A DNA stretch of 64,000 nucleotides from Martelella alba (GTDB lineage Bacteria > Pseudomonadota > Alphaproteobacteria > Rhizobiales > Rhizobiaceae): assembly GCF_006516955.1 (NCBI RefSeq), contig NZ_VHLG01000013.1:1-64000 (forward strand), given 5' to 3'. The notes under the pieces were generated by a model, which was given only the letters and a program-made list of their open reading frames with translations, did no database searches and was not told the origin of the DNA. Below are positions 8,563 to 17,787 of the stretch, piece after piece. The translations under genes were made by a program, and so were the position numbers. Within the stretch, counting starts at the first letter, position 1; each line of letters starts with the position of its first letter.

Positions 8563-9734
8563 GTGATATCGTCATTGCCGGCGCCTGCCGCACCGCGGTC
8601 GGCGGTTTCATGCGGTCGCTGTCAACCGTGCCTGCCCATGAACTGGGCGCGGCCGTGATCCGTGAAGCGCTTTCCCGTTCAAATGTATCGGGCCACGAGG
8701 TGGACGAGGTCATTTTAGGCCAGGTGCTGACTGCCGGTCAGGGCCAGAACCCGGCCCGGCAAGCGGCGATGAAGGCCGGAATTTCGGAAGCAGCCACCGC
8801 TTTCGGTATCAACCAGGTCTGCGGTTCGGGCCTGCGCGCCGTTGCCCTTGGCATGCAGCAGATCCTCACCGGTGAAGCCCGAATCATGGTGGCCGGCGGG
8901 CAGGAAAACATGTCGCTTTCGCCCCATTGCCAGCATCTGCGCGGCGGCACCAAGATGGGCAATGCCACCATGGTCGATACCATGCTGAATGACGGGCTGA
9001 TGGATGCCTTCGGTGATTTCCACATGGGGATCACCGCGGAAAACATTGCCAGCCGCTATAAGATCAGCCGGGCACAGCAGGATGCCTTTGCGCTTGCCAG
9101 CCACCACAAGGCCGCAGCAGCCGATCGTGAAAACCGCTTCGTTGACGAGATCGTGCCTTTTTCGGTGAAAAGCCGGCGCAGTGAAATGATCTTTGACCGC
9201 GATGAGCAGATCCGGCCGGACGCCGACGAAACCACACTGGCCAAGCTGCGCCCTGCCTTTGACGAGAACGGCACGGTCACGGCCGGCAATGCCTCGGGGC
9301 TGAACGACGGCGCTGCGGCCATGGTGCTAATGTCCGCCACGGAAGCAGAGCTGCGCGGTATTCATCCCATGGCGCGCATTGCCGGGTTTGCCACCGCCGG
9401 TGTCGACCCGGCCATCATGGGGATCGGCCCGGTCAATGCCTCGCTGAAGGCACTGGAACGCGCTGGCTGGTCGATTGACGATCTTGATCTGATCGAAGCA
9501 AATGAGGCCTTTGCCGCCCAGGCCTGCGCTGTCAATAGCGAGCTTGGCCTTGATCCGGCAAAGGTCAACGTCAATGGCGGGGCCATTGCGCTCGGCCATC
9601 CGATCGGCGCTTCTGGTGCACGCGTTCTCGTCACGCTCTTGCACGAAATGAAGCGGCGGAACGTGCAGAAAGGCCTGGCGACGCTGTGCATCGGCGGCGG
9701 CATGGGTGTCGCCATGTGCGTCGAGCGGGGCTGA
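8559..9734 (+). CDS. Acetyl-CoA acetyltransferase (thiolase)
   Basis: A 391-residue thiolase of normal length. Catalytic residues are visible: acylated Cys88 in [11 protein letters not shown], His347 in [10 protein letters not shown] and Cys377 in CIGGGMG. The sequence is closest in style to acetoacetyl-CoA thiolases (AtoB/PhaA) rather than long-chain FadA types. Downstream of a CoA-transferase pair, the likely pathway is 3-oxoacid to 3-oxoacyl-CoA to acetyl-CoA plus a shorter acyl-CoA, as in acetoacetate or 3-oxoadipate breakdown. It is the last gene of the operon; an AT-rich gap follows. Confidence 0.9.
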
Positions 9735-9991
9735 AATCTGGCATAGAGACGGCGCGGCCGGATGGCATTCCGGCTGCTCCCTTTCCGTTAAAGTACATAA
9801 TTATACCAGATATCGAAACAGAACAATAAATAGAAAAACCAATTGTAATTTCGGTATATTCATCAAATGAAACTCCATTCATAATTGAATTTTTATTTCA
9901 TATTCCGAAACTTAATATTATTTTTCTTATATAATTGTATCGGAATGAAAGATATATATGACTCTAATCCTCCCGGAACAGTGAGGAAGTC
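9735..9991. promoter_or_regulatory. AT-rich leader of the RiPP cluster with an inverted repeat
   Basis: From about 9780 to 9960 the DNA is much richer in A and T than its surroundings. It contains an imperfect inverted repeat: TTTCAT-A-TTCCG (9896-9907) against CGGAATGAAA (9941-9950), with exact 7-base arms ATTCCGA and TCGGAAT. No gene is seen in it. It is the probable promoter and operator region for the peptide cluster; the composition fits acquired DNA. Confidence 0.5.
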
Positions 9992-10135
9992 ATGAAAGAT
10001 AAAATCGAAAATACAGATACACTTGAAAAAGAACCGATGGACGACATTCGCGAAGAGTTGCGTGAGAATGTCGAGGCCTATCTTGAAAGCCACGTGCTTG
10101 AGGCCAACCCCAGCAGCATGATTATCCACGAATAA
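9992..10135 (+). CDS. Candidate RiPP precursor peptide, 47 residues
   Basis: A 47-codon frame starting MKDKIENTDTLEKEP and ending LEANPSSMIIHE, with GTGAGGAAG directly before its ATG. The first 37 or so residues are charged and strongly acidic with helical spacing (DDIREELRENVEAYLESHV), as expected of a leader. The last ten (ANPSSMIIHE) are less charged and would be the core. It has no Cys, so a thioether (sactipeptide or lanthipeptide) is excluded for this frame. Its place directly before a HExxH enzyme and a RiPP-type radical SAM gene is the main reason for the call. A hairpin separates it from the enzyme genes. Confidence 0.72.
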   Translation: MKDKIENTDTLEKEPMDDIREELRENVEAYLESHVLEANPSSMIIHE

Positions 10136-10146
10136 TGATGTTGCCC

Positions 10147-10178
10147 TGCGCTGCCGCTCATCTTCAGGCGGCGGCGCA
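10147..10178 (+). terminator. Hairpin between precursor and modification genes (probable attenuator)
   Basis: TGCGCTGCCGC (10147-10157) pairs with GCGGCGGCGCA (10168-10178) over 11 positions including one G-U, with a 10-base loop, followed by TTTGTCTTC. Hairpins here are common in RiPP operons and let the precursor mRNA exceed that of the enzymes; that role is inferred. Confidence 0.6.
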
Positions 10179-10207
10179 TTTGTCTTCAAACCAGGCGGAC
10201 AAACCCC

Positions 10208-11053
10208 ATGAACAGCGATATTTTTCAGCTGCCCGTCTACAAGACGGAGACGGTGCTCTCTTCTATTGACGCGCTTCTTGAGGTCGTTGACCCGGACGCT
10301 AAGGGTGGGCAGACGCGCCGGGCGCGCTTTTTTGCTTTTCTTAACAAGGCACTCAAGGTTCCCGTCCCGCATGATCTGGCCCATGACAGGCCGCTTTTGA
10401 TCGCCCGGCCCGGCAATCCGGACGAGGAAAAACTTCTGCGTACCCTGATGGGAAAAGGGTCGACTGCCGACGTCGCGACCGTCCTGTTTGATGCGGATGA
10501 AGCCGCGCTGTCTGAGGATCGGATCAATGAAGCGCTGGACCGGATTGCAACCCTTTATCCCGAAACCTATCGTGGCATCACTGCCGTGGTGGGCGCCTTC
10601 GTCTTTGCCCGCGTCAAAGGCTATGGCGGCGGCACCTCATCGGACGCGATCGGTGTTATCTGGTGCGGCATGCAAAATCCGGCCGCTGACGTTGATGACT
10701 ATGTCGAGCTGATCCTGCATGAATATATGCATCAATGCCTCTTCATAGATGATCTGTGCCACCGGATCTTCCGCTATTCAATGAAAGTGCTTGAGGACTA
10801 TCCGGCCCGTTCGGCGATCCTTAACCGCGAGCGTCCGCTGGACAAGGCCTACCACTCCGCATTCGTCGCCTATATTCTGATGCGCCACCGCCGCCACACA
10901 TCCGGACGGCCGCTCGAATATATGGACACAACGCGCAACTGCCTTTTGTCGACGCGCGCGCAGGCGGCTGGCCTGACGGCCCATGGGAGAGCCCGCCTTG
11001 GTGAACTTGAAGCAGGTTTTGCCCAGCTCGAACAGGAGCAGGCAGTCACATGA
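10208..11053 (+). CDS. HExxH-motif protein, putative RiPP-modifying enzyme
   Basis: A 281-residue protein with the metal-binding motif HEYMH at residues 171-175 (ILHEYMHQCLF). A further histidine, His216 in RPLDKAYHSAFVAY, follows at the spacing seen in the HEXXH family found beside RiPP genes. Members of that family have been re-assigned from presumed peptidases to 2-oxoglutarate-dependent peptide beta-hydroxylases. The N-terminal half has no motif I recognise. The gene lies between the precursor candidate and the radical SAM gene; its stop overlaps the next ATG (ATGA). A hydroxylase acting on the core, or a leader peptidase, are the alternatives. Confidence 0.65.
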   Translation: MNSDIFQLPVYKTETVLSSIDALLEVVDPDAKGGQTRRARFFAFLNKALKVPVPHDLAHDRPLLIARPGNPDEEKLLRTLMGKGSTADVATVLFDADEAALSEDRINEALDRIATLYPETYRGITAVVGAFVFARVKGYGGGTSSDAIGVIWCGMQNPAADVDDYVELILHEYMHQCLFIDDLCHRIFRYSMKVLEDYPARSAILNRERPLDKAYHSAFVAYILMRHRRHTSGRPLEYMDTTRNCLLSTRAQAAGLTAHGRARLGELEAGFAQLEQEQAVT

Positions 11054-13011
11054 ACCGCATTGATGTCGCGCTGGTGAACCCGCCTTTCTGGCCGGCGCTC
11101 CATTCCTCGCTCGCTCTTGGCCTGCTTCAGGGGGGGCTGGAGGCAAGGGGCTATCGCACCCGCCAGTTCAGCCTCTATCTAGACCTTGTCGAGCGGCTCG
11201 GCATTGACCCCTATCTCAAGATCGGCGAATTGCCCGGCGTTTCCTTCTTTCTGGGGGATTGGGTCTTTGCCGAAGCGGTGTTTGGGCCCGATGCGACGCG
11301 TGACGAAGCCTATTTCGCCTATGCCCGCCAGCCTGACCGGCCTGACCGGAAGGTCCAGCCGCTGCCGGAAGCGCTCCTGCACCTCGCGCGTGACCTGCGG
11401 GACGAGGTTCCTGCCATGATCGCGCGCTGGGCAGATGCACTTGTTGCATCGGGGGCACGCATTTTTGCCTTTTCCAATGTGTTCCAGCAGGCGGTTGCCG
11501 GTATTGCGGTTGCCCGGGCACTGAAACAGCGCTTGCCTGACTGCCTGATCGTCTTTGGCGGGGCCAATTGCGAGGGCCCGGCGGGCCGTGTGCTGATCGA
11601 GGCCTTCGGTGCTGTTGATGTTGTCGTCAATGGTGAGGGCGATCTTGCCCTTCCCGCGATTGTGAAAGCCTTTCTTGAGGGCAAGCGCGCCGAAATCGCC
11701 AGGATACCGGGCTGCATCACGAGTGAAACACCTTCCGATCGCACCGTGCCAGCCCAGGCGATCACCTGTCTCGATGATCTTCCCGAGCCGGTCTATCGCG
11801 ATCTCTATGCCGATCTCGCCGCGCGTGGCCTGTCAGAAACGCTGCAACCCAGTCTGGTCTTCGAGACCTCGCGTGGCTGCTGGTGGGGCGCAAAGCACCA
11901 CTGCACCTTTTGCGGTATCAATGCCGAGCGTATGGCCTTCCGCGCCAAATCGCCGGAGACAGCGCTCCGGCAGCTTAAAAATGCCGTTAAGGCCCATCGT
12001 CCAGACCGGATATTTACCTCCGACAACATCATGGATGTGAAGTATCTCGAGACATTTGTGCCGATGCTCGCCGAAGCCGGGCTTGATCTCGACATCTATT
12101 ATGAGTTGAAATCCAATCTGAAGCGGCAATATCTGGCGACATTCCGCGAAGCGGGAATTCTGTCGATCCAGCCGGGTATTGAAGCGCTTGACGACGATAT
12201 CCTCGCCCTGATCGACAAGGGTGCCCATGCCGGCCAGCATGTGCGGCTGCTAAAGGGCTGCGACGAGGAAGCGCTTGAGTGCAACTGGAACCTGTTGTTT
12301 GGCTTTCCCGGCGAGCGAGCGCCCGCCTATCAGCGCACATTGGCGCTGCTTCCACTCCTCACCCATCTGCCGCCCCCGGCTGATTTCACCCGCTTTGTGC
12401 TGTTGCGCTTCAGTCCCTATTTCGAACGGGGTGCCAATTATGGCATCAAAAACATCATCCCCGATCCCGCCTATCGGCATGTCTATGCGCTGGATGACCG
12501 GCAGCTTCACGATCTCGCCTATTACTTCACCTTCCAGCATGACGCGGCCGATGCCAATTTGCTTCCGGCCTTGTTTGAAAAGCTGTCTGCTGCCGTCGCC
12601 GAATGGAAGAAGGCCTACCATTATACGATGCTGATGGCTGGAGAGGGCGAAGACGGTGAACTTCTGGTGCTGGATACGCGCGACTGCGCGGCATCGCTAC
12701 GCCATCGTCTGGATCGCGCGACCGCCACCGTTGCCCGCGCGATCCGTGACGGGGCAACACCGGCAAAGCTCTTCGAAAAGCTGGAGGGCGCACTGTCAAA
12801 ACCGGAGATTGCGGCAGCACTTGAAACCCTCACCGCCAGCAAGATGATCGCCCATGTCTCCGGACAATATATTTTCCTGCCGGTCGAGATCGATGCCTAT
12901 GCCATCGGCGGACGTCAGGCCATGCCGGCGCTCAGGGCCTTCAAACGGGATGCCTTTTACAAGGCCTTTCCCGAGATCGCCCCGTTTAAGAGCCGGAGAC
13001 TTTCGGCATGA
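11050..13011 (+). CDS. RiPP-maturation radical SAM enzyme with N-terminal cobalamin-binding-like domain
   Basis: A 653-residue protein. Residues about 5-210 resemble a B12-binding domain (VALVNPPFWPALHSSLALGL, VFGGANCEGPAG, VNGEGDLALP). The radical SAM core starts near 270, with the cluster cysteines 277, 285 and 288 in SRGCWWGAKHHCTFCG, a CX7CX2C spacing rather than CX3CX2C. This motif and length are characteristic of the RiPP-maturation radical SAM C-methyltransferase family. The C-terminal 150 residues probably bind the leader peptide. It most likely methylates an unactivated carbon of the precursor. The gene is coupled by ATGA overlaps to both neighbours. Confidence 0.85.
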   Translation: MNRIDVALVNPPFWPALHSSLALGLLQGGLEARGYRTRQFSLYLDLVERLGIDPYLKIGELPGVSFFLGDWVFAEAVFGPDATRDEAYFAYARQPDRPDRKVQPLPEALLHLARDLRDEVPAMIARWADALVASGARIFAFSNVFQQAVAGIAVARALKQRLPDCLIVFGGANCEGPAGRVLIEAFGAVDVVVNGEGDLALPAIVKAFLEGKRAEIARIPGCITSETPSDRTVPAQAITCLDDLPEPVYRDLYADLAARGLSETLQPSLVFETSRGCWWGAKHHCTFCGINAERMAFRAKSPETALRQLKNAVKAHRPDRIFTSDNIMDVKYLETFVPMLAEAGLDLDIYYELKSNLKRQYLATFREAGILSIQPGIEALDDDILALIDKGAHAGQHVRLLKGCDEEALECNWNLLFGFPGERAPAYQRTLALLPLLTHLPPPADFTRFVLLRFSPYFERGANYGIKNIIPDPAYRHVYALDDRQLHDLAYYFTFQHDAADANLLPALFEKLSAAVAEWKKAYHYTMLMAGEGEDGELLVLDTRDCAASLRHRLDRATATVARAIRDGATPAKLFEKLEGALSKPEIAAALETLTASKMIAHVSGQYIFLPVEIDAYAIGGRQAMPALRAFKRDAFYKAFPEIAPFKSRRLSA

Positions 13012-13733
13012 GGGAAAGTATGAACCGGGTTTTCGGTGCAGCCCTTGCCGGTTACTGGAACGGTGACACCGAGGAGAAGCTGATCATCCACCGCGAGGAT
13101 GGCTTTTCGCAGCATTATGATATGGCGCAATATTTTCAAGAAGAGCCAGCCGGTTTCGAATATCATGCAATCGGCCGCGCCTGTGGGCGTGTATGGGATA
13201 TTGGCTGCGGCGCCGGACGTACGCTGCTTTCGCTTTCCCGACGGGGTATCGCGGCCACCGGAATTGACTGTTCGAAAGAGGCCGTTGCGATTGCCAGCGC
13301 GCGCGGCGCGCGACATGCGATCCAGCTTGATATTCTCTATGCGCCGCTTGAACCCCATCAGGTCGATGCCTTCACTCTGTTTGGGAATAATATCGGCCTT
13401 GCCGGTTCATGGAGCGGTGCGCTGCGACTGCTGGAGCGGCTGCGCTTTGCTGCCGCGCCTGGCGCAAGGCTGTGGTGTGATTCCATCGATATCTGCGCCC
13501 CGGCGCTTACGCTCAGCCGTGACTATGCCCGCCGCAATATTGCTGCCGGCCGTCCGCCCGGGCTCACTTTTTCTCGACTTCAGTACGGATCACGGCTTTC
13601 GCTCGCCGAGGGCTGGCTGTTTCTGTCGCTCGACGAACTCCAAAACCTGGCCGTTCAAACCGGCTGGACCATCGAAGAACAGTGGCAGGATGCCGAAAGG
13701 GGTCCGTGGCTTGCAGAACTCAGGGCAGACTGA
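13008..13733 (+). CDS. Class I SAM-dependent methyltransferase
   Basis: A 241-residue cytoplasmic methyltransferase with SAM-binding motif I VWDIGCGAGRTLLSL (about residues 63-77), an acidic ribose-binding turn TGIDCSKEAV and motif II-like QLDILYAPL. The first ATG overlaps the radical SAM stop; a second ATG four codons later is an alternative. Within the cluster it would add an O- or N-methyl group to the peptide, for example at a carboxylate or the N-terminus, but the target cannot be read from sequence. Confidence 0.8.
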   Translation: MRESMNRVFGAALAGYWNGDTEEKLIIHREDGFSQHYDMAQYFQEEPAGFEYHAIGRACGRVWDIGCGAGRTLLSLSRRGIAATGIDCSKEAVAIASARGARHAIQLDILYAPLEPHQVDAFTLFGNNIGLAGSWSGALRLLERLRFAAAPGARLWCDSIDICAPALTLSRDYARRNIAAGRPPGLTFSRLQYGSRLSLAEGWLFLSLDELQNLAVQTGWTIEEQWQDAERGPWLAELRAD

Positions 13734-13844
13734 ATGAAAAAACAGATTGATGATCGCGTGTTGCAATGGCCTGGATGTTGGCTCGCCGGTCGCGCGCATA
13801 TTATCCCTGACGCCAGCTTCATCTTCGGCCAAACTCCCCCCTGA
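13734..13844 (+). CDS. Possible 36-residue peptide, uncertain
   Basis: A 36-codon frame whose ATG directly abuts the methyltransferase stop codon. It begins MKKQIDDRVLQW and ends FIFGQTPP, with one Cys at position 15. No ribosome site beyond coupling is visible, and it does not resemble the first precursor. It could be a second small peptide of the cluster or chance. The rest of the gap up to the transporter start (13845-14014) shows no gene, except GAGGGTAAG before ATG 14015. Confidence 0.25.
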   Translation: MKKQIDDRVLQWPGCWLAGRAHIIPDASFIFGQTPP

Positions 13845-14014
13845 CCACCCTCTTCCGCATCCGTGCCCGGCCGACACAAAGGCCCAGGCACCAGCACCTG
13901 CAATGCAGACATGAGCCGGAATGCCCCCTGGCTGCTGGGACAGGTGACTTGTAACGGGCGGTCCGGTGCGCCGGCGCCGCAGATTTGAAGCCTGGCAAGC
14001 CGCGAGGGTAAGCC

Positions 14015-15424
14015 ATGACATTCCTTACGCACTCCTTGCCGTCACAGGCACATTTGCCCAGCCACCGTCTTTCCACGATCTTCACCTTTGCCCGGTTCGG
14101 ATCGCCTCATTTTTTTGTCCTGCTGGGACTGACGCTTGTGCAGCAATCGCTTGTCGGCGGCACGGTCTACTCGCTCGCCGTCTTGGTCGAAGATGTGACC
14201 AGAGGTCAAAATCCGTGGCCGATGCTGATATTGACGGCCTGCCTGTTTCTGCTGCCCCATGTGCCATCCTATTTCATCCAGCCGACCCAGGCGCGATGGC
14301 AGGTTGCCATCATGGCCGGGCAGGTTCAGCGCTATGCCAAACGCTTTGCCCGGCAACCTCTCGATTACGCCAATGGCCCGGTGCGTGACCGCGCGCTTTC
14401 GGCTGCTGCCTCCGAGGCCTATGTTGTCGCCCAGTCGACGGTCACGATTGTCGAGAGCTTTTTGAGCAGCGTCTTTAATGCGCTCTTCACGATCGTGCCG
14501 ATCCTGATTTTCGTCGACGCCAAATATTTCCTGGCCTATGCGGTCACGGCGTTGATCTCTCTCGTTACCTTCCGCTTTCTGCATCAGGATATCCGCGCCT
14601 GTTCGCGCGCCGCGCAAAAGGCTCGCGTCGCGCTGGACAAGGGGGTGCGCAATAGCTGGACGCGCCTGACAATCGGATCACAGCGCCAGCGCATGGCCGC
14701 CGCACAAAGCATGAGCGAGGCGCTGAGCGAGGCCGAACAGCGCTTTTGCGCCCGTGAACGCCGCATTGCCGCAGGCACCAGCCTTGTCGGAGCACTGGCG
14801 CTGGCCTCGATCCTTGCCATTACCTTCAGGCTGTTTTCGAACCATGCCGGCGACGTTGCCTTCCTCAGTGTGCTGATTGCCAGCTTTCCGCGACACATCC
14901 AGATCATCTCGCAGATCATCGGCGTGGCCCAGCTTTGCTTCTCAGCGCCACGCTTGCTTGAAGAGATCCGCAATATCGATCTCGATGACCTGCCGCCGCA
15001 AACAGAAAAGACAATCACCCGCCGGATCAGTGCCGATCGCATCACCATCAATCGTGCCCCGCTTGCCGATGATCTTGCAACCGTTGACGCCACGCGGCTT
15101 GGTAAAGGACGTCATCTGATCGAGGGGCCGAATGGCAGCGGCAAGTCAACCCTGCTTGCCCTGATGGCGTCGAGAGCCGGAAACAGGCCCTATGTCTTCA
15201 TTCCCGCAGCACCGGCAGCGCTTGCCGAACCGGGCGCGACCGGCTCCACCGGGGAGATCATGCAGCGGCTGGTCGATGAAATGCTCAATGATGATGCGGT
15301 CGATCTGGTTTTTCTTGATGAATGGGATGCCAATCTCGATGCCAATGCACGCCGAACCATCGGCGCCGCTCTTGACCGCCTTGCCACAAGGGTGACCGTG
15401 ATCGAGGTGCGCCACGCGCGATAG
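14015..15424 (+). CDS. ABC transporter, fused permease and reduced ATPase domain, probable RiPP exporter
   Basis: A 469-residue membrane protein. The N-terminal about 320 residues have hydrophobic segments near 31-55, 68-88, 150-190 and 255-275, as in exporter half-transporters. The ATPase part is only about 130 residues: Walker A GPNGSGKST (371-379), a signature-like GSTGE (410-414) where LSGGQ is expected, Walker B VDLVFLDEWD (429-438) and a terminal His467. The helical subdomain and Q-loop region are almost absent: about 31 residues separate Walker A from the signature-like site, against roughly 90 in typical transporters. GAGGGTAAG precedes ATG 14015. It probably exports the mature peptide. 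Confidence 0.7.
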   Translation: MTFLTHSLPSQAHLPSHRLSTIFTFARFGSPHFFVLLGLTLVQQSLVGGTVYSLAVLVEDVTRGQNPWPMLILTACLFLLPHVPSYFIQPTQARWQVAIMAGQVQRYAKRFARQPLDYANGPVRDRALSAAASEAYVVAQSTVTIVESFLSSVFNALFTIVPILIFVDAKYFLAYAVTALISLVTFRFLHQDIRACSRAAQKARVALDKGVRNSWTRLTIGSQRQRMAAAQSMSEALSEAEQRFCARERRIAAGTSLVGALALASILAITFRLFSNHAGDVAFLSVLIASFPRHIQIISQIIGVAQLCFSAPRLLEEIRNIDLDDLPPQTEKTITRRISADRITINRAPLADDLATVDATRLGKGRHLIEGPNGSGKSTLLALMASRAGNRPYVFIPAAPAALAEPGATGSTGEIMQRLVDEMLNDDAVDLVFLDEWDANLDANARRTIGAALDRLATRVTVIEVRHAR

Positions 15425-15488
15425 GATTTGACTTGCCCGGAGCGAAGTGAAGATCGACAAGATCATGCGGCAAAAACAACTGGATAGT

Positions 15489-15517
15489 GCACCGATCTGA
15501 TTGAAACAGATCGGTGC
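15489..15517. terminator. Hairpin between convergent transporter and GH2 genes
   Basis: GCACCGATCTG (15489-15499) pairs perfectly with CAGATCGGTGC (15507-15517) around a 7-base loop. It lies in the 125-base gap after the rightward peptide cluster and before the end of the leftward GH2 gene, so it can serve either transcript as a terminator. There is no strong T-run. Confidence 0.65.
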
Positions 15518-15549
15518 TTCAGGACCGACAGGCGGCCTTGGCTTATGGT

Positions 15550-17787
15550 CTAGCCAGCTGTTACCGTGACCCGCCTTGTGCCAAGGCTTGCATGGGTGAC
15601 GGAAAGCGTGATGGTGCCGGCACCACATGCCGTGACCCAGAAGCCCGTAGCCCCGCCATTCAGCGATCTTTGTGCGGGACCGGCAAGCGTGCCCGGTCCC
15701 TCAACGGCAATCGAGATCGGTTCGAACAGATAGGGCAGCTTGTTGCCGGCCTGATCCAGCACCCGCACCATCACCCGGACGCAATCATCTTCGCCGATGG
15801 CCGGTGCATCGGGTGTCAACGACAGTTCGTTTGGCAGCGGGTTGGATATATAGCGGGCCGTCTTGACCGGCGCACCATCGACATAGCCGGTGAAGGTCAC
15901 ATCCTGCCAGCCCATGCCCCAATGTCCGAATTCCGGACCGGGATAATCCTCGCGGCGGATGATCACCGGCGCATGCGGCAGATGCTTGTAAAGCGCGCGG
16001 TCCGGCTTGAACCGGCGCGGCGGATGACCGGCGAAATCAAGTTCCACCTCATCGCAATTGGTCAGGATGATCAGCGGCAGAACACCGCCATGATTGCGGT
16101 CGCCGCGCGTCCAGTAGGTCACCGGCATCAGCGTGACACCCTCTTGCGGGTCGCATTGGCTGGCATAGACATAGGCTGCGAATTTCGGCTCGCGATTCAT
16201 ATCCATGACGCCGTGATGGCAGATCCGGTCGCCGGAGCCGAAATCCTTGTGGGTGTTGTAGTCGAAGGCACACCAGCCGATCGCGCCTGAAATTTCCGGA
16301 TCACCATAGGCGGCGTCGAGCACTTCGAGGTGGCGGGTGACATGTTCTGCCTGCCGCTGTTCCTGATCATAAACCTTGGTCGGATACATATGGCCGTTGA
16401 ACTCGGTGATCAGATAGGGCACCGGCCGGTCCAGCCCCGTCACTTCACGGCGTGGCCTGAGCGCTGTGCGCGGTCGCTGGCCGCTGATTTCCTCCATATT
16501 GAGGATGAAATCATTCATTGAATAGACGTCTTCCAGAAGCTCGCTGTCGGTGATGCAGCGCACGCCGGTGGTCGGACGGGTGCTGTCCAGCGCATGGGCG
16601 ACACGGTTGGTTTCGGTGTAGAAGTCATGCACGTCACGGCTTTCATTGATGCGCACGCCCCAGATGATGATCGAGGGGTGGTTCCAGTCGCGCCGGATCA
16701 TGGCGGCAACATTGTCCACCGCCGCCGCCTGCCAGGCATCGTCGCCGACATGCTGCCAGCCGGGGATTTCCTCGAACACCAGCAGGCCGATCTCATCACA
16801 GCGGTCGAGAAACCAGCTGGACTGCGGATAATGCGAGGTGCGGACGATATTGAGTTTCAGTTCATGCTTCAGGATTTCCGCATCGCGGATCTGGGCCGCG
16901 CGGCCGAGCGCATAGCCGACGTAAGGGAAGGACTGATGGCGATTGAGCCCGCGCAGTTTCAACGGTCTGCCGTTCAGGCTGAAACCTTCAGGCGTGAAGG
17001 CGATATCGCGGAAGCCAAAGCGCACGGTCCTTTCGTCGTCACCGGCTGCCGTCGTCAGCTTCAGGGCGACGCAGTAAAGCACCGGGCTGTCGATATCCCA
17101 GAGCGCCACATCATCAAGTCCGTCAAAATCCAGCGTCACCTTTTCACCAGAGACCGGCACGGCCCCAGTGGCAATTGCCTCGCCCGCCATGGTCTCGATC
17201 ACAGCATGCAGCCTTGCGCCGTCCAGCGCGTATGCCTGCGGATTGGCGAGTTCAACCGCCAGGTGAACGTGTTTCGACGGTGCCAGAACATCCGGTGTCT
17301 CAACCTTGCAATTGGCGATCGATACCGGTGCCCGGACCTCCAGCCAGACATCGCGGTAAATCCCGGCATAGGTGAGATAATCGATCCGCGCGCCGAAAGG
17401 CGGGATCGCCTTGTTTTCCGAGCCGTCGACCTTGACGGTCAAGAGGTTCTCCCCCTCGGTGAGGTGCTCCGTCAGCCGAGCCTCGAAGGGCGTATAGCCA
17501 TCCGGATGCGCTGCGATCTCAACGCCATTCAGATAGACCACACTATTGGCCATGGCACCGTCAAAGACCAGCACCACTTCCCGGCCCGCCCAGTCTGCAT
17601 CTGCCGTGAAACGCTTCTGATAAGTGAATGCCTTCCAGTACGACGTCTCGTCGAGATAGGAAAAGGGCAGGTCGACCGCATTATGCGGCAGGGTCACGGC
17701 TGTGCCCTGGCAATCCGTGCCGGCTGCGGCGGCATGAAAGCCGGGCGAGAAGGTCCAATCCCGGTTGAAAGAGACAGTTTTGCGCAT
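15550..17787 (-). CDS. Glycoside hydrolase family 2 protein (beta-galactosidase/beta-glucuronidase class)
   Basis: A 745-residue enzyme of GH2 layout: sugar-binding jelly-roll (about 1-155), immunoglobulin-like domain (about 160-260), TIM barrel (about 265-560) and a C-terminal beta domain. The acid/base is Glu382 in IIWGVRINES and the nucleophile Glu462 in LITEFNG. There is no signal peptide, so it acts on imported oligosaccharides. ATG 17787 follows AAGGTGA. GH2 includes beta-galactosidases, beta-glucuronidases and beta-mannosidases; with the neighbouring lyase and GH105 a uronic acid-containing glycan is likely, but specificity is not readable. Confidence 0.88.
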   Translation of the reverse strand: MRKTVSFNRDWTFSPGFHAAAAGTDCQGTAVTLPHNAVDLPFSYLDETSYWKAFTYQKRFTADADWAGREVVLVFDGAMANSVVYLNGVEIAAHPDGYTPFEARLTEHLTEGENLLTVKVDGSENKAIPPFGARIDYLTYAGIYRDVWLEVRAPVSIANCKVETPDVLAPSKHVHLAVELANPQAYALDGARLHAVIETMAGEAIATGAVPVSGEKVTLDFDGLDDVALWDIDSPVLYCVALKLTTAAGDDERTVRFGFRDIAFTPEGFSLNGRPLKLRGLNRHQSFPYVGYALGRAAQIRDAEILKHELKLNIVRTSHYPQSSWFLDRCDEIGLLVFEEIPGWQHVGDDAWQAAAVDNVAAMIRRDWNHPSIIIWGVRINESRDVHDFYTETNRVAHALDSTRPTTGVRCITDSELLEDVYSMNDFILNMEEISGQRPRTALRPRREVTGLDRPVPYLITEFNGHMYPTKVYDQEQRQAEHVTRHLEVLDAAYGDPEISGAIGWCAFDYNTHKDFGSGDRICHHGVMDMNREPKFAAYVYASQCDPQEGVTLMPVTYWTRGDRNHGGVLPLIILTNCDEVELDFAGHPPRRFKPDRALYKHLPHAPVIIRREDYPGPEFGHWGMGWQDVTFTGYVDGAPVKTARYISNPLPNELSLTPDAPAIGEDDCVRVMVRVLDQAGNKLPYLFEPISIAVEGPGTLAGPAQRSLNGGATGFWVTACGAGTITLSVTHASLGTRRVTVTAG

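Follow-up and report, generated by a model that had tools for sequence, protein, structure and literature searches.

Which peptide does a five-gene cluster of Martelella alba modify, and to which of its enzymes does that peptide belong? The cluster lies on the plus strand of a 64,000-nucleotide stretch of DNA (contig NZ_VHLG01000013.1, positions 1 to 64,000; hereafter the window). A reading of the letters alone (the sequence-only reading) had proposed a biosynthetic cluster for a ribosomally synthesized and post-translationally modified peptide (RiPP), with a 47-residue frame as substrate, three enzyme genes joined by ATGA overlaps, and an ATP-binding cassette (ABC) exporter. We found all five frames again, together with the overlaps between the HExxH and radical S-adenosylmethionine (SAM) genes at 11050-11053 and between the radical SAM and methyltransferase genes at 13008-13011. 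The proposal held up: the enzyme families score above their cut-offs, all five genes occur in a second species, Martelella sp. HB161492, and relatives of the precursor stand beside HExxH genes in Bacillota. New in this analysis is a cross-phylum HExxH/MxIH precursor family, in which relatives of the 47-residue frame travel with the HExxH gene. The reading that we favor, and hold to be reasonably probable, is that the HExxH enzyme binds the leader block of the peptide and oxidizes its MIIHE end, with the radical SAM enzyme, the methyltransferase, and the exporter following; sequence supplies the families, gene order, conservation, and precursor family, from which the chemistry and the export are predicted.

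The precursor gene (9992-10135) encodes a leader block, NVEAYLESH, followed by a short core and a C-terminal MIIHE, within the terminus NPSSMIIHE. The peptide is acidic and free of Cys and Phe, the part after the leader block lacks Phe, Tyr, Trp, and Cys, and no NCBIfam or Pfam family matches above cut-off. The frame is no product of chance and is under purifying selection. HB161492 carries it intact at 81% identity, with 24 nucleotide differences, 16 of them at third codon positions, a nonsynonymous divergence (dN) of 0.096, and a synonymous divergence (dS) of 0.995. Residues 16 to 38 show one amino-acid change against eight nucleotide changes; six further amino-acid changes fall in residues 1 to 15 and two in residues 39 to 47. 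Unlike the frame itself, much of the DNA 5′ of it aligns poorly between the two species.

The radical SAM gene turned out to be a poor guide to the substrate. The sequence-only reading would have been refuted by homologous clusters with a different conserved small peptide in place of this frame, and the outcome is mixed: at the one close homologue, that of HB161492 (85% identity), the frame is there, some of the distant ones have other peptides beside them, and the frame tracks the HExxH gene. We examined 79 radical SAM loci, which apart from HB161492 are 31 to 41% identical in the best segment, for small frames on the plus strand, in a span reaching from 3 kb before to 2 kb past the radical SAM gene. 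Three other small-peptide families recurred at 19 of the 79: one with an LEDVQ leader (8 loci, 7 of them with peptides ending DGVIRPRC), a DQFATAFTP-like family (7), and a Cys-rich family, TLEMRVAELEDKL (4); the remainder showed no clear family. Frames with the LEDVQ leader and DGVIRPRC tail lie just 5′ of the radical SAM gene at L024, L037, L060, L075, L088, L089, and L092. Loci of this type, in Alphaproteobacteria, Actinobacteria, Acidobacteria, and other groups, thus share a homologous radical SAM protein with Martelella but have, where a family can be recognized, other precursor families. We therefore rejected the idea that the radical SAM gene marks the precursor class; enzymes of its family appear, as judged from these neighborhoods, to be attached to several classes of peptide.

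An HExxH neighbor was present at 2 of the 79 radical SAM loci, in HB161492 (L016) and Sphingomonas colocasiae (L069), using a profile built from 10 HExxH proteins that include those of both hits. The methyltransferase profile matched HB161492 only, and the exporter profile matched HB161492 strongly and four other loci at 26 bits or less. Among 56 frames with HE..H in the 79 loci, none of the 8 scanned matched TIGR04267, the HExxH peptide hydroxylase family, at an E value of 1e-5. Of 76 distinct genomes searched, 29 contain a match to that family above cut-off at some position (11 of 39 in one set and 19 of 39 in a second, with genome G467 in both; in the second set one more genome matched below cut-off). 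The Sphingomonas colocasiae locus, with HExxH genes flanking the radical SAM homologue on both sides, is a second such pairing. Its row (L069, 5475-11708) reads radical SAM-like frame, HExxH gene, radical SAM homologue, second HExxH gene, and oxygenase-like frame, the two outer frames being assigned by eye only. With other peptide families at the radical SAM loci and the frame linked to the HExxH gene, it is apparently the HExxH enzyme with which the substrate goes.

By tblastn the HExxH protein matched 8 of 72,556 plasmid records and 1 of 50,697 phage records, and a Staphylococcus HExxH query matched 9 plasmid records; the viral contigs searched with HExxH queries held no relative. Among Pseudomonadota genomes, matches occurred in 4 of 397 at the level of order, 3 of 385 at class, and 5 of 398 at phylum, each count including the window's own genome. 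The nine matches outside the window were weak (19 to 31 bits), and six of their neighborhoods were inspected for frames of at least 100 amino acids. One of two Acinetobacter plasmid records and two of three from S. warneri were read. We compared the DNA just before the HExxH gene at 11 loci: the window, HB161492, S. aureus plasmid pPH1-1, two S. warneri plasmids, Cytobacillus, Bacillus phage SPbetaL1, Acinetobacter, Nocardia, Streptomyces, and Sphingomonas.

At 7 of these 11 loci the frame directly 5′ of the HExxH gene combines a leader block, N[IV]xx[YF]xx[SDN][HY], with a C-terminal Mx[IL][HK], a count that takes in the phage peptide, which ends MILK; if a strict Mx[IL]H is required toward the end of the small upstream frame, 6 of 11 remain. 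The Martelella frame has both blocks and this position, and so belongs to the proposed family. Across 13,286 small frames of 25 to 110 amino acids from the loci and the window, the full two-block pattern was found in HExxH-adjacent frames only, in 11 rows that represent 7 distinct sequences and include copies from the window and HB161492. The plasmids of Staphylococcus and Cytobacillus, and phage SPbetaL1, thus share with Martelella both the HExxH subfamily and the precursor blocks, but have no radical SAM or methyltransferase gene annotated nearby, and the plasmids carry a major facilitator superfamily (MFS) transporter where Martelella has an ABC exporter.

Individual loci differ in arrangement. 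In S. aureus plasmid pPH1-1 (L099, 6790-8828), a single 42-residue MQIH peptide precedes two HExxH genes and then the MFS transporter gene, and on the S. warneri 16A plasmid (L123, 3702-5241) an MQIH peptide and a shortened HExxH gene adjoin an IS257 transposase gene. Streptomyces NBC_00690 (L110, 5466-7827) has an HExxH homologue that reads RQAVH at the motif position; its neighbors are a small peptide and a radical SAM gene, and it is perhaps a non-catalytic partner.

Because the pattern was drawn after the fact, we made a held-out test. A two-block matrix built from five Bacillota peptides was scored on 12,563 frames, excluding those loci and the extra copies of the window and HB161492. First rank went to the Martelella frame (27.2 bits) and second rank to its orthologue (24.9), with the next frame at 14.8 bits and the whole set averaging −3.6 bits (standard deviation, 4.5), for block limits chosen after seeing the Martelella frame, the first of several points that weigh against our reading. 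A plain profile hidden Markov model of the Bacillota peptides places the Martelella frame only fourth of 12,563 (E = 14), a rank probably due to its middle part being shorter by some five residues, so the evidence for a precursor family rests on two blocks with a free spacer. The pattern is missing at 4 of the 11 HExxH loci: Acinetobacter, which has RMIAYE instead, Nocardia, Streptomyces, and Sphingomonas. The Bacillota loci, seen without radical SAM and methyltransferase genes, imply that those two steps have no fixed link to MxIH peptides. For the HExxH protein, an AlphaFold2 model from a four-row alignment had a pLDDT of 42, too poor to use, and of the solved structures searched with the HExxH profile, five sequences matched at E values up to 1 (best, 0.0089), none credibly. 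The full cluster is known in two genomes only, and every chemical step set out below is predicted from sequence.

The small frame might instead be a regulatory or chaperone protein, with the true substrate encoded elsewhere. It is short, acidic, without Cys, and without a family match, and another frame (13734-13844) lies directly 3′ of the methyltransferase gene; we tried that frame as a second precursor and rejected it because the region is not conserved in HB161492. Given this lack of conservation, the held-out match to peptides adjoining HExxH genes, and the position directly 5′ of the HExxH gene in seven motif-bearing loci, we judge a regulatory or chaperone role highly improbable.

The HExxH gene (10208-11053) encodes 281 amino acids with HEYMH at residues 171 to 175. 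By sequence its product is a member of TIGR04267, named "aKG-HExxH-type peptide beta-hydroxylase" (58.8 bits; cut-off, 40), a profile that matches all six members of our aligned HExxH set at an E value of 0.01 or better, and Fe(II)/2-oxoglutarate-dependent oxidation is predicted. HExxH is also the classical protease motif of zincin-like metalloproteases, and with no other protease among the five genes the protein could be a leader peptidase. That has a slim chance, since the score is above the cut-off of a family named for 2-oxoglutarate-dependent hydroxylases and the wider family's characterized enzymes, from pfl/pos and pes, are oxidases (PMC12636437, PMC13060819).

In the reading that we favor, the HExxH enzyme would bind NVEAYLESH and oxidize MIIHE, with beta-hydroxylation in or beside MxIH as the likeliest reaction and oxidative cleavage there as a less likely one. 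By analogy, MxIH is the likely site because the HExxH enzymes of pfl/pos and pes modify their precursors not far from the C-terminus (PMC12636437, PMC13060819). Known reactions vary: PflC/PosC-type enzymes combine Gln beta-hydroxylation with oxidative cleavage at ARMD (PMC12636437), PesO of the nitrilobacillins beta-hydroxylates Pro (PMC13060819), and an HExxH enzyme hydroxylates a biphenomycin intermediate (PMC12707348). The His of MxIH is a plausible target because Asp and His are hydroxylated in a case of HExxH fusion to a radical SAM protein (cited in PMC12636437), but the phage peptide has Lys there.

Cleavage deserves separate weighing. If MxIH were a signal of the kind that ARMD is for PflC and PosC, oxidation at the alpha-carbon would split the backbone, and the short core left behind would stop ahead of Met and carry a C-terminal amide. 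Several features suit this idea: the tetrapeptide close to the C-terminus is conserved and the residues preceding it vary, no protease is encoded among the five genes, and ARMD is removed oxidatively by the pfl/pos enzymes (PMC12636437). In PosC, though, the Ala of ARMD is decisive (A91Q abolishes cleavage), and the first residue here is Met; the Arg, Met, and Asp are individually dispensable though fully conserved (PMC12636437), so conservation of MxIH alone is no pointer to cleavage. We consider such cleavage unlikely. The earlier picture of a C-methylated, hydroxylated, and further methylated product therefore stands in part: oxidation, C-methylation, and a further methylation are all in keeping with the enzyme families, but the HExxH enzyme may cleave the backbone instead.

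The radical SAM gene (11050-13011) encodes 653 amino acids, in which CWWGAKHHCTFC constitutes the C-x7-C-x2-C motif. By sequence the protein is a full-length member of TIGR03975, "RiPP maturation radical SAM C-methyltransferase" (559 bits; cut-off, 281.85; profile positions 1-606 of 606), and cobalamin-dependent C-methylation is predicted from the family name. Pfam Radical_SAM matches above its gathering score (41.5 bits), a B12-binding match falls below its own (24.1 bits against 32.1), and among solved structures the methyltransferase TokK is nearest by sequence (E = 2.6e-8). The enzyme probably C-methylates residues within VLEANPSSMII. B12-type radical SAM enzymes can act otherwise; in the biphenomycin and pbs pathways they cross-link (PMC12707348, PMC12257519), and the Martelella enzyme might likewise cross-link or rearrange the peptide with no methylation. 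This seems quite unlikely to us, as the NCBIfam family is named C-methyltransferase and matches at so high a score, and the peptide offers no Phe, Tyr, Trp, or Cys after the leader block for a pbs-type link. The available passages of a paper on poly-cyclopropylglycine (PMC9062424) contain no mention of this radical SAM family under the terms searched.

The class I SAM methyltransferase gene (13008-13733; 241 amino acids) matches Methyltransf_25 (36.7 bits) and Methyltransf_11 (35.6 bits) above their gathering scores, and a daptide-type methyltransferase profile at 26.2 bits, far from its cut-off of 175. Judged by family name only, its product probably caps a heteroatom: a carboxylate, a hydroxyl, His, or the N-terminus. 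In Martelella the HExxH/MxIH core would thus be extended by the radical SAM enzyme and the methyltransferase. Since none of the five genes is a recognizable leader protease, the leader would be removed by another protease or stay on.

The product would leave the cell through the compact ABC protein (14015-15424; 469 amino acids), which scores weakly with general exporter families. The sequence-only reading had called this exporter reduced, and rightly so: its ATP-binding domain is short, and Walker A, a degenerate STG[EQ] signature, Walker B (DEW), and the final His are kept in all six aligned relatives. Because all six share these features, the reduced form seems to be characteristic of the family and no sign of decay. 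A relative lies directly 3′ of the HExxH gene in Acinetobacter, others lie 3′ of a DUF6875 gene in Methylophaga and Moraxella, and another is on a Psychrobacter plasmid. The DUF6875 gene, compact exporter, and small upstream frame of Methylophaga and Moraxella (L104, 6107-8320; L106, 4765-6956) are possible further peptide clusters. Over 398 genomes the exporter profile was uninformative, as ordinary ABC proteins swamp it (358 of 398 match).

How does the cluster compare with described HExxH systems? The pfl/pos clusters of Pseudomonas (PMC12636437) resemble it in their HExxH-family enzyme, a conserved tetrapeptide near the precursor C-terminus, the lack of a protease, and RiPP logic. They differ in a nitrile-hydratase-like leader, a Gln run followed by ARMD, and an MNIO-nitroreductase fusion, whereas Martelella has the short leader block NxxxYxxxH, MxIH, and radical SAM and methyltransferase genes instead; its frame ends NPSSMIIHE and not in a Gln run and ARMD, and no such fusion was matched among the five cluster genes. 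The nitrilobacillin (pes) system shares an aKG-HExxH hydroxylase and a short precursor, near whose C-terminus PesO acts, but its MNIO, asparagine-synthetase-like nitrile synthetase, M16 peptidases, and R(V/T)DN motif (PMC13060819) are absent from Martelella's five genes. Biphenomycin clusters (bip/bpm; PMC12707348, PMC12257519) likewise unite an HExxH hydroxylase and a B12-type radical SAM enzyme, but are described with an FRF core, an MNIO, an arginase, a JmjC hydroxylase, a TldD protease, and a cross-linking radical SAM enzyme; the Martelella peptide has no Phe in its 47 residues, and there is no MNIO or arginase among the five genes. In open-licence papers, searched without the motif strings and judged mostly by title, abstract opening, or selected passages, we found no description of this precursor family, of Martelella RiPPs, or of the Staphylococcus HExxH loci, in agreement with the earlier view that the combination corresponds to no described product class.

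The radical SAM protein matched in 13 of 101 genomes, at full length and high identity (85%) only in the window's own genome and HB161492 (taken to be G005); among 12 other genomes of the genus, HB161492 matched and 11 did not. Protein identities to HB161492 run 81, 84, 85, 85, and 86% from precursor to exporter, and dN is far below dS in all five genes (0.08 to 0.11 in the four besides the precursor). DNA identity is 94.3% and 92.8% in the two flanks but 81.7% (9877-13746) and 82.7% (13962-15420) in the cluster, making 9735-15552 a sharply bounded unit that is faster diverging or exchanged. A CoA-transferase/thiolase operon lies on one side and a beta-galactosidase-like gene, which scores below the cut-offs of named families, on the other. 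In the 11 other genomes of the genus the best matches to the two flanks are never adjacent, the nearest being about 16 kb apart (G001), with the first match partial in two (G003 and G012).

The DNA around the precursor gene has features of its own. The stretch 5′ of it (9780-9991) is AT-rich, with a guanine-plus-cytosine content of 24% at 9800-9899 and 30% at 9900-9999, and holds a TATAAT-like box (9930-9935) and a GAGGAAG ribosome-binding site; the AT-rich part from about 9880 to 9938, with TATAAT, and the ribosome-binding site are kept in HB161492. A promoter scan gave no more matches than shuffled sequences. Between the precursor and HExxH genes lies a hairpin of 12 pairs (10147-10178), followed by TTTGTCTT, which folds at −29.4 kcal/mol (z, −2.89); its HB161492 counterpart folds alike (−33.6 kcal/mol; z, −2.81). 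Comparing the two folds by eye, one pair is changed on both sides and one on one side. It is possible that the hairpin acts as an attenuator or stabilizes the mRNA; a terminator scan was not above shuffles, and Rfam had no match over 9700-15600. PADLOC (all five proteins) and PHROGs (four, the radical SAM protein being left out) gave weak or generic matches only, to the methyltransferase and ABC proteins.

Enzymes of the aKG-HExxH type are newly recognized peptide oxidases, for which work from 2025-2026 reports unexpected reactions, among them multiple hydroxylation and oxidative cleavage (PMC12636437, PMC13060819). We see about an even prospect that the MxIH peptides form an undescribed RiPP class, in which an HExxH oxidase is paired with a precursor of 37 to 66 residues that has a short leader block and ends in a conserved MxIH, and which is spread across phyla by plasmids and phages, of which Martelella would be an elaborated member, with a cysteine-free, C-methylated, and oxidized peptide of a new structural type. 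Some loci apparently consist of a single enzyme with a single peptide some 40 residues long, a minimal system for the choice between hydroxylation and cleavage. In Martelella a B12 radical SAM enzyme would act on this small substrate as well, which would make the order and interplay of the two radical steps directly testable.

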